64,000 nucleotides of DNA from NCBI GenBank assembly GCA_017407205.1, contig JAFQXA010000012.1:1-64000 (forward strand), read 5' to 3'. This stretch comes from Clostridia bacterium. GTDB taxonomy: Bacteria > Bacillota > Clostridia > Christensenellales > CAG-138. Below, piece after piece: positions 8,488 through 32,640 of this stretch. Position 1 is the first letter of the stretch. Every line of letters starts with the position of its first letter. The position numbers were made by a program, and so were the translations under genes. The notes below the pieces were generated by a model. The model worked only from the letters and a program-made list of their open reading frames with translations, searched no databases and had not been told where the DNA came from.

Positions 8488-11004
8488 TTAACCTTCTAAA
8501 ATCTTTTTCTGCAATGCTGCGATATCTCTTGAATTTACCTTGCCGTCACTATTCATATCGGCTGCTTCGAGAGCTTTTCCTTCCAGCCTTGCAGTATCAA
8601 GAACATGCTTCTGAACTGCTGCTATATCTCTTGAATTTACCTTGCCGTCACCGTTTACATCGCCTTTTATTGCATCAGTGCCGGGTGTAGGTGTCGGAAC
8701 AGGGGTCGGTGTAGGAATTACAGTTGTTTCATTAGGTGCAATTTTGTAACCGTTCCATGTTGTTTCACCATTGGGTGCCCATGAAAGCTTGTAATTTTCG
8801 GGGTAGTAAATTGTGAAATTTTCCTTCGCACCGTCAAATACGCGACCGCCGAAGTTGATCGGGGGCTCGCCGTAGCATACTGCACTTTCAAGGTTCTTTG
8901 CATTGCGGAATGCATTATCACCGATTGTTTCCACAGATGCACCGATAAATACATTTTTAAGTGAAGAACAACCGTTAAACGCGCTCTCCCCTATTTCCTT
9001 AACGCTGTCGGGAATAACAACTGCATCGAGTGCTGTGCACTCTGCAAATGCTGCGTAGCCGATAGTCTTAAGACCATCGTTAAGACCCATACCCTTGAGT
9101 GACTTGCAGCCGTAAAATGCATTCTGGTCTATCTTCTCTATACTTGTCGGCAATACCATGTTTTCAAGTGATGTGCAAAGATAGAATGCACTATTGCCAA
9201 TGTTCTTTACACCATTGGGTATATTTACCTTTTTCAATGAAGTACATTCAAAGAACGAGTAATCGCCCAAAATATTTACGCTTGCAGGGAGCTCTATTTC
9301 TGTTAACTTGGTGCAATATTCAAATGCTGAAGCAGCTATGGTTGTTGTGCCCTCTTTAACCGCAAGCTTACCTGTTTTACCGGGTACGCACAATATAAGA
9401 GCCAAACCGTCCTTTGTATAAATCACATTGTCAATCACCTGATATACGCTATTATCAGCGGAAACGGTTATTGTTTCAACGCCTGCACTATTTGAGAATA
9501 TTGCTGTGCCGAGCGACTTAAGTCCCTTACCGAAGCTTACGCTTTTAAGACTTGAGCAATAACTGAAAGCTTCCATGCCAACCGACTCTACCGAATCAGG
9601 CAAAGTGATGCTTGTTATCTTCGAGAATGCAAATGCAAAGTCTGCAATCGCTGTTACAGGATAATTATTGCCGATTGTTGCAGGAACATTAACTGCACCG
9701 CCCGTACCTTTGTAGCCTGTTATCATAGCCTTTGAGCCTACGAGGATATACTCAAACTCTGCATCAACAGGAAGTTCGCTTATGCTTCCGTCAAACTTTG
9801 AGAGTTGGTAACCATTCCAAGTTGTTTCACCGTTAGGTGCCCATGCTGAAGCTTTTTCTTCCGTATAACCTACTGTGAAATTAAAAGCTGTACCCGTAAA
9901 TACATTGCCGCCGAAAGCTGTAGGCGGTACGCCCTTGAAGTTCGCCGCAACCAAGTTTGAAGCGTGCATGAATGCCATATTACCGATTGTAGTTACGCTT
10001 GCAGGAATTACTACATTTGCAAGGCTTGAACAATTTCTGAAAGCACTTGATCCGATTGTACTCAGGCTGTCAGGCAATTGAACCTGTTCAAGACCTGTGC
10101 AATCAAAGAATGCTTCACTGCCGATTGCTGTAACGCCCGTAGGCAATACAATATTCTTCAGCATTTTGCAGCCTTCAAATGCACGGTCGGGAATTTTTGT
10201 TGTGCTGTATGACCACGACATACTCTCAAGAGCTTCGCAGAAACTGAATGCACCGTTATCTACTTCAATAACACTTGCAGGAATAACTATATTTTTCAAA
10301 GAAGACTCAGCGAAAGCATATTCGCCAATCTTTCTCAATCCGTAATTCAAAGTCAACTCGCCAAGTTTACTTGCACCTTCAAAAGCGGTATCTGCAATTT
10401 CTTCAACCGATACGGGGACTGAAAAAGCACCTGACTTTGCTTCAGGATAAGCAACAAGAACTTTCTGTGATGCATTATAAAGAACTCCGTTATTTGAAAC
10501 AAAGGAAGCATTACCGGAAGCAACACTTATTGTTGCGAGGTTTCTGCACTTTGAAAACACGCCCATGCCAAGAGTTTCAACACCCTTACCCAAGGTTACA
10601 GACTTGATACCCGACTCTGCAAAAGCTTCATTACCGATACTCGTTACGCTGTCAGGAATTGTAACGTTTTCAAGTGCCGTACAGAATACAAACGCCAAGG
10701 GACCTACCGTTTTTATAGTCGAGGGGATTGTTATCTTGGTAAGCAATTCGCAACCAAAAAATGCACCTTCTCCAATCGCTGTGACATTTTTTCCATTATA
10801 CTGTGACGGTATATCAAGTGCACCGCTTGCCGCATTGTCGCAAGCCGTCACGCTGTACGTGCCGTCTGAAAGAGCGGTAAACGTCAAGCTCTCAACACCT
10901 GCTTTTGTTTCAACCTCTACAGCATAAACAACACCGAATGTTGATAATACCATCACAAATGCTGTTACAATAGCTATGAGTTTTGCTGTTAATCCGTGCT
11001 TCAT
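8488..11004 (-). CDS. Secreted BspA-like LRR protein with dockerin
   Basis: An 838-residue secreted protein. A signal peptide (about 1-29) is followed by two blocks of BspA/LRR_5-type repeats (roughly 45-370 and 440-730). The repeats read like IPDSVTSIGNEAFAxC, each predicted to form a beta strand plus turn in a solenoid. Each block ends with the same cap sequence (SWAPNGETTWNGY), so the protein looks internally duplicated. A Thr-Pro linker leads to a type I dockerin (about 781-838) with two calcium loops, each DxNxDGKVNSRD. Dockerins bind cohesins on scaffolds or the cell surface. LRR_5 proteins often mediate adhesion; the partner is unknown. ATG follows a GGAGG site. Confidence 0.93.
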   Translation of the reverse strand: MKHGLTAKLIAIVTAFVMVLSTFGVVYAVEVETKAGVESLTFTALSDGTYSVTACDNAASGALDIPSQYNGKNVTAIGEGAFFGCELLTKITIPSTIKTVGPLAFVFCTALENVTIPDSVTSIGNEAFAESGIKSVTLGKGVETLGMGVFSKCRNLATISVASGNASFVSNNGVLYNASQKVLVAYPEAKSGAFSVPVSVEEIADTAFEGASKLGELTLNYGLRKIGEYAFAESSLKNIVIPASVIEVDNGAFSFCEALESMSWSYSTTKIPDRAFEGCKMLKNIVLPTGVTAIGSEAFFDCTGLEQVQLPDSLSTIGSSAFRNCSSLANVVIPASVTTIGNMAFMHASNLVAANFKGVPPTAFGGNVFTGTAFNFTVGYTEEKASAWAPNGETTWNGYQLSKFDGSISELPVDAEFEYILVGSKAMITGYKGTGGAVNVPATIGNNYPVTAIADFAFAFSKITSITLPDSVESVGMEAFSYCSSLKSVSFGKGLKSLGTAIFSNSAGVETITVSADNSVYQVIDNVIYTKDGLALILCVPGKTGKLAVKEGTTTIAASAFEYCTKLTEIELPASVNILGDYSFFECTSLKKVNIPNGVKNIGNSAFYLCTSLENMVLPTSIEKIDQNAFYGCKSLKGMGLNDGLKTIGYAAFAECTALDAVVIPDSVKEIGESAFNGCSSLKNVFIGASVETIGDNAFRNAKNLESAVCYGEPPINFGGRVFDGAKENFTIYYPENYKLSWAPNGETTWNGYKIAPNETTVIPTPTPVPTPTPGTDAIKGDVNGDGKVNSRDIAAVQKHVLDTARLEGKALEAADMNSDGKVNSRDIAALQKKILEG

Positions 11005-11231
11005 TTTCTGTATTGCCTCCGTTCATTTTATAGCATCGTTATATTCTGATTTGCACAAACTTGTCCAAAGTACAACTATACGTTTACAGTATACTTACAT
11101 TTTTGCTCAATATCAAGATGTTAATTTAGTATATTTTTAGTAAATCTATACAGTCATCCTTTCTCTACTTTACAATTTACCGCACAGGAATTAAAATATA
11201 GTTAATTATGATAATATGCGGAGGTTATTCT

Positions 11232-13094
11232 ATGAAAAAACTCTTATCCGTCATTTTAGTATTTTCATTGCTCTTGCCGATAATTTCTTCGGCTGCAGCT
11301 TTTGCCTCATCCAACGCCATCACTCTGTCCGTCGGTACAGTTTCGGCAAAAAGCACTCAAACAAAAGAGATAACAATTCCTGTAGCTGTTGAAACAAACG
11401 CTCAAGGATTTATTAACTTCCAGTTTGCCGTCTCCTATGATTCGGAGCTTTTCAAGGCAGTCACGGCAAAAATCCCCGATGACTCAATTTTGGTCTACGC
11501 TCCCGACGCAAGGGATCCCGAAACACTGGACAAGCCCCCCCTCTCCGTTTTTGCTCCCGAAAACAAGGGCGAGATTTATGTTGCCTCGATGGGTGCTTTC
11601 TCGACAGATAAAAACGGAGTCATGTCAAACCACGCATTTTTCAAGATGGGTACACTTGTAAATCTTACTTTCAAGTTATCCGATGCTCTTTTAAACGGTG
11701 AAATCAAAGAGCTTGAAGATGCTCTTTCCACAATAGAAATTTCTGTTGATAACGAAACAACGCCTTTAATGCTTTGTTATGCTGACGGTTCTGTAATCCC
11801 TGCAGAGTCAATCAGCTGTAAGTCGGGCGGAATAACAATAAGTGATTGTGGACACCCTGACAAAATAGAAATAACTTCAAAGGGCAACACCGAGCAATCG
11901 GACGATTCAATAACTTCAGTTTCCTTTACCGCAAGCTTCACTTCTTCTTCCTTTTTTGCGGTAGGCAATACACAGTGGTATGTAAATGACTCCCTCCAGG
12001 AAAAAGCAAGCGGTCGTGTATTCTCATTTACACCCGAAAAAAGCGGCACTTTCGTCATAGAAGCACGCAACGGTTCAGTGCGTTCAAATACGATAACGGT
12101 TACAGTAACACAAACTGCTCCGAGCACACCTTTTGTACCGAATACAACACCCACTCCCAGACCGAACAGCAATTTTGAATACTATATTCTCAATAAACAG
12201 GTAGTAATTTCAAAATACATCGGCAAGGCAAAAGATGTTATTATTCCTTCCGAAATCGACAATATCGAGGTCGCTAAAATAGGCGACAATGCATTTGCAG
12301 GTCGCACTGATATAATATCTGTTTCAATACCCGAAGGAATTGACGAAATAATGAGCGAGGCATTTTCAGGCTGCAGCTCGCTTAAGGAGATTACATTCCC
12401 CAAGAGTCTTTACTTCATACAGAACAACGCTTTTGAGAACTGCACATCACTTGAACGTGTTGACTTCTTGAATTCATTTGTATGGTTCTACCAGGAAGCC
12501 TTTGCAAACTGCAAAAAGCTCAGCAGCGTTTACTGCTATACAGAAACACCCATGGCACTTGATGAAACAACTTTCAACGGAACAGCAAGTGACCTTACTA
12601 TTTATTATCTTGGCAGTTTTGTAAACTATTGGTCCCCTGCAGGTGAAACTACTTACATGGATATTCCGATAAAGCCGTTTAACATCGACCGTATTTTACT
12701 CACAAGCGAAAGTGAGCTTTCAATCGCAAACGGTATGCTTTTCGGCGTAACACCTCAAACAACAGTTGCTGCCTTGCTTGCAAACTTTGCGGGTGGCAAC
12801 ATGAGCGTAGTTGACAAAAACGGCAAAGTGCTTGACATCGACAAAACTGTCGGTACAGGCTCAAGGGTAAGACTTACTGACGGTGATACTGTAATCGATG
12901 AGCTTACCGTTGTAATTTCAGGCGATGTAAACGGTGATGGTAATATTAACTCACGAGACCTTGCGGCTATGCAAAAGCATATTTTAGGTACAGCAGAGCT
13001 CACAGGAATATACATAAATTCGTCTGATGTAAACGCAGACAGCAAAATAAACTCACGAGACTTAAGTGCATTGCAGAAGATAATACTTGCATGA
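11232..13094 (+). CDS. Secreted cohesin-like / LRR / dockerin protein
   Basis: A 620-residue secreted protein. In order: signal peptide (about 1-26); a cohesin-like beta-sandwich (about 28-200; ITLSVGTVSAKSTQTKEITIPV, FAVSYDSELF, ending SCKSGGITI); an Ig-like domain (about 205-290); a Thr-Pro linker; a short LRR_5 block (about 330-460); a roughly 75-residue module also found in the 31087-32640 protein; and a C-terminal type I dockerin with two NSRD loops. Carrying both a cohesin-like domain and a dockerin, it could act as a connector in a cellulosome-like assembly. The start is the ATG after GGAGG; an earlier in-frame ATG at 11208 lies before that site. It diverges from the other LRR gene. 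Confidence 0.85.
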   Translation: MKKLLSVILVFSLLLPIISSAAAFASSNAITLSVGTVSAKSTQTKEITIPVAVETNAQGFINFQFAVSYDSELFKAVTAKIPDDSILVYAPDARDPETLDKPPLSVFAPENKGEIYVASMGAFSTDKNGVMSNHAFFKMGTLVNLTFKLSDALLNGEIKELEDALSTIEISVDNETTPLMLCYADGSVIPAESISCKSGGITISDCGHPDKIEITSKGNTEQSDDSITSVSFTASFTSSSFFAVGNTQWYVNDSLQEKASGRVFSFTPEKSGTFVIEARNGSVRSNTITVTVTQTAPSTPFVPNTTPTPRPNSNFEYYILNKQVVISKYIGKAKDVIIPSEIDNIEVAKIGDNAFAGRTDIISVSIPEGIDEIMSEAFSGCSSLKEITFPKSLYFIQNNAFENCTSLERVDFLNSFVWFYQEAFANCKKLSSVYCYTETPMALDETTFNGTASDLTIYYLGSFVNYWSPAGETTYMDIPIKPFNIDRILLTSESELSIANGMLFGVTPQTTVAALLANFAGGNMSVVDKNGKVLDIDKTVGTGSRVRLTDGDTVIDELTVVISGDVNGDGNINSRDLAAMQKHILGTAELTGIYINSSDVNADSKINSRDLSALQKIILA

Positions 13095-31086: not shown

Positions 31087-32640
31087 TTAACTTACGAGCA
31101 GTTTTTGAACTTGTGCTATATCACGTGAGTTCAAAAACTCGTCCATCGTGCAGTCTGCGGCATAAAAGAAAGCGCCTTCAAGCTTCTTAATCTCCATAAC
31201 ATGTTTTTGCATCATGGCAACATCCCTTGAATTTATATAAGCATCACCGTTTGTATCACCCATAACAGCCACACTTACTTTATCAACAATATTTCCGTCT
31301 TCAAGAGTAATCTCGATAATTGTACCCGTTCCGACAAGTGTGTTTTCATCGGTAATAGCTTCACCTTTGCTGTCTTTTATAACTATAAATTCACCGTTTA
31401 AAAGGTTACTCTCCAGTGTTTCTAAATTCGTATTTGAACCGATGCCACTTAATACGCCAATCTCTCGTTCTACTTTATAACCGCTGTTTTTATCCACAGC
31501 AACAGCGTCCATAACAACAAACGGTATATTCCTGTTTGATGCACATGTATGTGCAAATGATTCATTTTCAACATAAAGAGTTATATTGTGGCTTCCCTTG
31601 AACGCATCATAATCTATGCTTGTTGAAGTACGTGGAATAACCACCTTTGTCAGAGAAGGACAATCGGCAAACACCGCATATTCTATGTATTTCACACTAT
31701 CGCTAATAATCACACTTGTCAGTAGTTCTGAATGTTCAAATGCATTCATTCTTATGTTCACAACATTATCAGGTATATCTATACTCGTTAATTTACTGTT
31801 ATAAAACGCACTAGCGGCTATCCCCCTTACGCTTTCCGGTATAAAATAGCCGTTATCTGTTCTTCCTTCCGGGTAATGACAAAGAACCGTCTTGTTCTTG
31901 TTAAACAAAACGCCATCCACATCACAAAACGTCTTGTTCCCCTCTGAAACCTCTATATTCGCCAAGGATCTGCACTTCAAAAAAGCATCTTCCAATATTA
32001 TCGTTATATTCTCCGGAATTATTATACATTCTAACGAGCGACAACTTTCAAATGTCCCTCCTTCTATTTTTTTCATACCTTTCGGAATATTTACGCTTTC
32101 CAAAGCCAAACATTGCCTAAACACATACGAGCCCATTTCAGTCACACTGTCAGGAATAACTATGCTTTTCAAGGCGCAACAACCGCCAAATACTCGGTCG
32201 CCTATACTTGTCAGATTTTTTCCTAATGTTACATTTTTCAAAGACGAGCATCCCTCAAACGCACCATACCCTATTTTCGTAACTCCATCACCCACAACAA
32301 CGCTTGCTAATCTTCCACAATAGTAAAATGCATTTCCACCAATATCAACTACACTGTCAGGAATAACCACGCTTTCCAACATCATACGATTATAGAAAGC
32401 ACCGTTGAGTATTCCCGTCACCGGATAACCGTCTATTTCAGACGGTATTATAACATCCTGTTCAGAACCCGTATATGATAAAATTGTTACAGCTTCGTTG
32501 TTATATATTTCATATCTGAAGCCATTCTTTTCACCTTCGATTATTATCACGTCGCTTGCACTTGCACTCATGCCAAGCATTAAAACGCCGATACAAAACA
32601 TAAATACAACCAAAAGCGTTGCTGTCTTTTTGCTTTTCAT
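31087..32640 (-). CDS. Secreted BspA-like LRR protein with dockerin
   Basis: A 517-residue secreted protein: signal peptide (about 1-29), a block of LRR_5 repeats (about 45-385; IPDSVVDIGGNAFYYC-type units), a roughly 75-residue module with GTGTIIEITLEDG that matches the pre-dockerin module of the 11232-13094 protein, and a type I dockerin (about 460-517). The first calcium loop is normal (DTNGDAYINSRD); the second (DCTMDEFLNSRD) has Thr and Glu where Asn and Gly are expected, so it may bind calcium poorly. AAGGAG precedes the ATG. It follows the sulfatase gene by 27 bases and may share its transcript with pyrH. Confidence 0.9.
   Translation of the reverse strand: MKSKKTATLLVVFMFCIGVLMLGMSASASDVIIIEGEKNGFRYEIYNNEAVTILSYTGSEQDVIIPSEIDGYPVTGILNGAFYNRMMLESVVIPDSVVDIGGNAFYYCGRLASVVVGDGVTKIGYGAFEGCSSLKNVTLGKNLTSIGDRVFGGCCALKSIVIPDSVTEMGSYVFRQCLALESVNIPKGMKKIEGGTFESCRSLECIIIPENITIILEDAFLKCRSLANIEVSEGNKTFCDVDGVLFNKNKTVLCHYPEGRTDNGYFIPESVRGIAASAFYNSKLTSIDIPDNVVNIRMNAFEHSELLTSVIISDSVKYIEYAVFADCPSLTKVVIPRTSTSIDYDAFKGSHNITLYVENESFAHTCASNRNIPFVVMDAVAVDKNSGYKVEREIGVLSGIGSNTNLETLESNLLNGEFIVIKDSKGEAITDENTLVGTGTIIEITLEDGNIVDKVSVAVMGDTNGDAYINSRDVAMMQKHVMEIKKLEGAFFYAADCTMDEFLNSRDIAQVQKLLVS

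Follow-up and report, generated by a model that had tools for sequence, protein, structure and literature searches.

The gene at 11232-13094 encodes a protein of 620 residues that is probably an adaptor scaffoldin in a cohesin-dockerin assembly on the cell surface; we put the probability of this reading, in which binding is predicted, at about 0.62. Most work on cohesins and dockerins concerns their role in holding fibre-degrading cellulosomes together. The gene lies in the window, the 64,000-nucleotide stretch of a contig of a gut Clostridia bacterium analysed here. Support for the adaptor comes from the domains, the fold of the N-terminal domain, conservation of the gene, a shared dockerin code, anchoring scaffoldins, and sortases. 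Below, C numbers are contigs of the window's genome (G000), other G numbers are genomes of relatives, and L numbers are loci.

In the proposed mechanism, the C-terminal dockerin and the unnamed module before it would plug into the cohesins of wall-anchored scaffoldins encoded on contig C20. The plugged-in protein would then display its Ig-like domain and its leucine-rich repeat (LRR) block on the surface, where the LRR block may be adhesive, and its N-terminal cohesin would receive one further dockerin-bearing protein.

Layout of the protein

The following features in the window bear on this reading.

8488-11004, minus strand: divergent neighbour, a secreted LRR_5 protein with a C-terminal dockerin of the same code (Pfam, loop reading)
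11220-11224, plus strand: Shine-Dalgarno-like GGAGG, read in the sequence, seven bases before ATG 11232
11232-13094, plus strand: cohesin, Ig-like, LRR_5, X-like module and dockerin gene, predicted secreted, 620 residues (ORF, Pfam)
11232-11309, plus strand: signal-peptide-like N-terminus, residues 1-26, judged from sequence alone
11310-11846, plus strand: cohesin domain, residues 27-205 (Pfam PF00963, 29.7 bits; fold)
11847-12128, plus strand: Ig-like domain, residues 206-299 (Pfam scan; profile match to phage Hoc)
12174-12674, plus strand: BspA-type LRR block, residues 315-481 (Pfam LRR_5 at 349-451)
12699-12917, plus strand: unnamed X-module-like module, residues 490-562, directly before the dockerin (own HMM)
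12921-13088, plus strand: type I dockerin, residues 564-619, with two symmetric loops, NINSRD and KINSRD (Pfam PF00404)
31087-32640, minus strand: third LRR_5 protein with a dockerin of the same code (Pfam, loop reading)

The reading frame is open and complete. ATG 11232 opens the signal-peptide-like stretch, from which the protein is presumably secreted; an in-frame ATG at 11208 is the less probable start. The roughly 230 intergenic bases at 11005-11231 are shared with the divergent gene 8488-11004.

A Pfam scan of the whole protein assigns residues 349-451 to LRR_5 (78.6 bits; cut-off 27.7) and residues 564-619 to Dockerin_1 (57.3 bits; cut-off 22.9; profile positions 2-57 of 57). The dockerin carries the two calcium-loop repeats of type I, DVNGDGNINSRD and DVNADSKINSRD. 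An LRR block and a C-terminal dockerin thus stand on one protein, as the preliminary description had proposed from the sequence, and the two other LRR proteins of the window to which it had assigned dockerins, 8488-11004 and 31087-32640, both have them. For the Ig-like residues 206-299 the Pfam scan gave no family above its cut-off; profile A1 matches an Ig-type stretch in phage Hoc at 24.1 bits. Cohesin and dockerin on one chain, together with the apparent signal peptide, give the protein the make-up of an adaptor scaffoldin. A full-length structure model reached a pLDDT of 52.9, too poor for domain contacts.

The N-terminal cohesin

With the whole protein as query, Pfam at E<=1 does not list Cohesin. 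Scanned by itself, the N-terminal domain scores 29.7 bits for Cohesin (PF00963; cut-off 24.1, E 8.4e-7). When the genome is searched in all six frames, Cohesin comes up at the same place with 28.6 bits. AlphaFold, given residues 27-208 aligned with two relatives (three sequences), returned a beta-sandwich with mean pLDDT 76.1. All 50 matches listed by Foldseek (best E 9.4e-8), and likewise all 50 listed by VIA-align, are cohesins, cohesin-like modules, or cohesin complexes. The top VIA match is 4uyp_C, a cohesin in complex with a dockerin (Z 15.1, rmsd 2.8 over 143 residues). The best 22 VIA matches, with Z from 15.1 down to 13.4, are all cohesins and mostly type I; rank 17 is 2xdh, an archaeal non-cellulosomal cohesin. 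The model therefore has the cohesin jelly-roll fold, not that of an unrelated beta sandwich, and the suggestion of a cohesin-like N-terminus holds. By Pfam and modelled fold the domain is a type I cohesin, for which dockerin binding is predicted.

Cohesins, scaffoldins and sortases in the genome

The genome assembly comprises 1.67 Mb and is 80% complete. Pfam and an HMM built from its own cohesins together give 13 cohesin modules in 11 proteins. Twelve Pfam matches at E<=10, eight of them over the cut-off, were reduced by one weak match and extended by two found with the own HMM, one of which is broken by a contig end. The match dropped, C4:53604-55145 (11.6 bits), reads as DUF7507/DUF11. The cohesin of C21:706-3885 is absent from the Pfam matches at E<=10 and is found by the own-cohesin HMM alone, at 123 bits.

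Candidate receptors lie at C20:28649-32463, where three tandem cohesin genes carry sortase-type signals.

C20:28649-30499: anchoring scaffoldin with three cohesin modules and a PKTG sorting signal
C20:30716-31624: anchoring scaffoldin with one cohesin module and a PKTG sorting signal
Third C20 scaffoldin gene, cut by the contig end: one cohesin module and a PKTG sorting signal

PT-rich linkers are present in all three products, and each C-terminus consists of PKTG followed by a hydrophobic stretch and then a charged tail. Because the third gene runs off the contig, this set of scaffoldins is incomplete. The genome has two sortase genes, so the proposed search for scaffoldins and sortase anchoring yielded both.

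A dockerin accompanies the cohesin in five of the 11 proteins, and three of these five have LRR too: the window's protein, C6:28435-32166, and C21:706-3885. This species and its sister (G001) both have, in addition, a cohesin-LRR protein without a dockerin (C38:36824-40246, L014; G001:C56, L084) that ends in a helix, IKKFFASIFG or IRKFISQILGA. This short, amphipathic-looking terminal helix is possibly a membrane anchor.

Dockerin proteins and their cargo

The genome search gave 45 dockerin matches, 42 of them above the cut-off, in 39 proteins. Loops were read in 43, including C12:9362 below the cut-off; C41:86743 and C23:13907, also below it, were left unread. LRR_5 occurs in 14 of the 39 proteins. 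Other Pfam domains on dockerin proteins are transglutaminase, subtilase, CHAP, amidase_3, SpoIID, metallo-beta-lactamase, and PMBR (pseudomurein-binding) repeats, the last recurring in L013, L014, L018, L021, L024, and L028 of G000. Three secreted-looking proteins (C3:193139-193939, C3:194135-194989, and C34:36909-38366) have what looks like half a dockerin, with one loop only, near the N-terminus.

The glycosidase-like model GHL10 matches two of the 39 dockerin proteins, and an established plant-polysaccharide glycosidase model at E<=0.001 matches none of them in this 80% complete genome; dockerin-bearing enzymes could lie in the part that is missing. These counts support the expectation of adhesion-type modules in place of glycoside hydrolases. 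That the organism is a fibre degrader with an ordinary cellulosome, the LRR protein being an accessory, is highly improbable: the layout of cohesins, dockerins, and a sortase-anchored scaffoldin resembles that described for Ruminococcus flavefaciens in the consulted part of PMC4081043, but the dockerin-bearing plant-polysaccharide enzymes of a cellulosome were not found.

An HMM of the module at residues 490-562, run on the cohesin- or dockerin-bearing proteins examined in this genome, finds it 19 times, in 16 proteins, and all 19 copies immediately precede a dockerin. The window's copy (12699-12917) has no Pfam family and no credible PDB match; it and the 18 further copies in the genome measure about 75 residues. 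The likeness to the X-modules of known X-dockerin dyads is one of position only.

Two specificities on one chain

The loop positions of type I dockerins read the cohesin. The motif S[RK]D stands in both loops of 32 of the 43 dockerins read, the window's included, in one loop of six, and in neither loop of five. (The C11:57652 dockerin, counted among the 32, has SRD in both loops and a chance third match.) The cohesins divide differently. In the tree, the window's cohesin, its paralogue C39:53677, and two relatives from G001 form a four-member clade (support 100/100); another clade (87/96) holds 13 cohesins of the genus, including the anchoring cohesins and most other adaptor cohesins. Read by eye, the alignment column that we match to Asp39 of the CipA cohesin holds Gln in the window's cohesin and its three relatives, Glu in the 13 of the other clade, and Asp in C22. 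The window's dockerin fits the common code, whereas its cohesin, by clade and by this residue, seems unlike the common receptor. We therefore favour an adaptor that has two specificities, in preference to a chain of like molecules. The paralogue C39:53677 has the same type of cohesin and no dockerin; such a cohesin can therefore stand on a chain that lacks a dockerin.

The same facts count against the adaptor as well: its cohesin lies outside the anchoring-cohesin clade and has Gln in place of Glu. Furthermore, according to the part of PMC5301203 consulted, most dockerins of R. flavefaciens LRR proteins bound no tested cohesin on a microarray.

An unlikely alternative is that the N-terminal domain has kept the cohesin fold and lost dockerin binding, serving as a structural or adhesive beta-sandwich on what would be LRR cargo with a dockerin. 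The divergent clade and the replacement of an acidic residue by Gln are consistent with such a loss, as is the presence of Clostridium perfringens cohesin-like modules and the non-cellulosomal Archaeoglobus cohesin among the VIA matches listed. However, most of the top structural matches are cohesins whose structures were determined in complex with dockerins, and the same Gln is shared by family members that have one cohesin and a membrane tail, for example in G006 and G021:C44.

Self-chaining, in which the dockerin of one copy binds the cohesin of another to form linear polymers, is distinctly unlikely. Dual binding would be possible for a chain that carries both modules and a symmetric dockerin, and the ScaH dockerin of R. 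flavefaciens is described in the consulted part of PMC5301203 as recognizing its own cohesin. Against this, the likeliest receptors of the present dockerin code are the anchoring cohesins, which belong to a different clade; the window's dockerin would face competition from 31 others that have its code in both loops; and C39:53677 keeps this type of cohesin where there is no dockerin to pair with it.

A differing loop code, hydrophobic instead of SR, is found in the dockerins of C6:84065-86059 (SpoIID) and its neighbour C6:86187-88025, which, by their loops, may use another cohesin. We considered whether the window's cohesin class pairs with these two dockerins, and do not claim it. Their code occurs in none of the 13 distinct dockerin sequences recovered by pattern search from G001 (78% complete, 250 contigs), which carries the window's cohesin class. 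The SpoIID relative in G001, on its contig C93, is a 418-residue frame, and no dockerin match is listed on C93.

Conservation in relatives

The sister species, G001 (RGIG3096), has an orthologue with 49% identity and the same domain order; the N-terminus and the cohesin start are missing at a contig end. Over the orthologue, its contig C231 reads as JAFSFN010000236.1 (Clostridia bacterium isolate RGIG3096 Goat_Rectum), and the two genes downstream are relatives of the two downstream of the window's gene. Best kept are the dockerin (58% identity) and the module before it (56%), followed by the LRR block (52%) and the Ig-like domain (47%); the cohesin is the least kept domain (42%). Across 61 genomes, a search with the N-terminal domain found matches only in the window's genome and in G001, two in each.

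Among 69 cohesin ORFs read from the other genomes of the relatives set, 18 have a dockerin on the same chain, some of these by weak matches (14-19 bits). The 69 ORFs come from the 78 of 84 places that had a locus. By a simple LRR pattern, such chains that include an LRR are confined in this set to the sister species (two ORFs).

Comparison with known systems

Cohesin-LRR-dockerin connectors are already known, and by analogy ScaI of R. flavefaciens FD-1 is the known counterpart. ScaI is given in the consulted part of PMC5301203 as LRR-Coh-Doc, with a dockerin that binds the sortase-anchored cohesin of ScaE. Compared by module listing alone, both proteins combine LRR with a single cohesin and a single dockerin; ScaI has the LRR first, whereas the window's protein has in addition an Ig-like domain and an X-like module. 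The ScaI system is rich in glycoside hydrolases, unlike the one in the window's genome. The adaptor scaffoldin ScaC, listed in PMC4081043 beside the sortase-anchored ScaE, and ScaH (PMC5301203) likewise have a single cohesin and a single dockerin; in the portions of these reports consulted, both are listed as Coh-Doc, without the LRR of the window's protein. Among the R. flavefaciens proteins in the consulted portion of PMC2930009 are LRR-Doc and transglutaminase-Doc cargo. The former resembles 8488-11004 and 31087-32640, with LRR and a C-terminal dockerin; no cohesin is listed for it there, in contrast to the window's protein.

The organism itself also resembles the "scaffoldin-containing" microbes of PMC11557425, such as Lachnoclostridium sp. 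MSJ-17 and Paenibacillus guangzhouensis, characterized in the consulted text as having many dockerins or cohesin-dockerin adaptors and few or no fibre-degrading dockerin enzymes; the window's genome is similarly dockerin-rich and fibre-enzyme-poor. The cohesin proteins of MSJ-17 are described there with C-terminal transmembrane helices, where the window's genome has sortase signals. The main text of that report has no mention of leucine or LRR. Given the ScaI precedent, and with cohesin-dockerin chains common in relatives, the type of protein is known; the more interesting feature is the cargo, in a system that is unusually LRR-rich and glycosidase-poor.

Outlook

A broader picture can be offered only tentatively, and we hold it with less than even confidence. 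One dockerin code may recruit cargo with LRR, transglutaminase, subtilase, CHAP, amidase, and beta-lactamase-fold domains to the cohesins anchored by sortase; the three cohesin-LRR-dockerin proteins would provide branches; and the second cohesin class, that of the window's protein and C39:53677, would bind something else. The result would be a wall-anchored lattice for adhesion and cell-wall remodelling, not for fibre digestion.

If this is true, a gut lineage keeps the cohesin-dockerin device for adhesion or wall remodelling, with nearly one dockerin code. Such a system of LRR and cell-wall cargo would be a simple case for asking how cohesin-dockerin chains end or branch.
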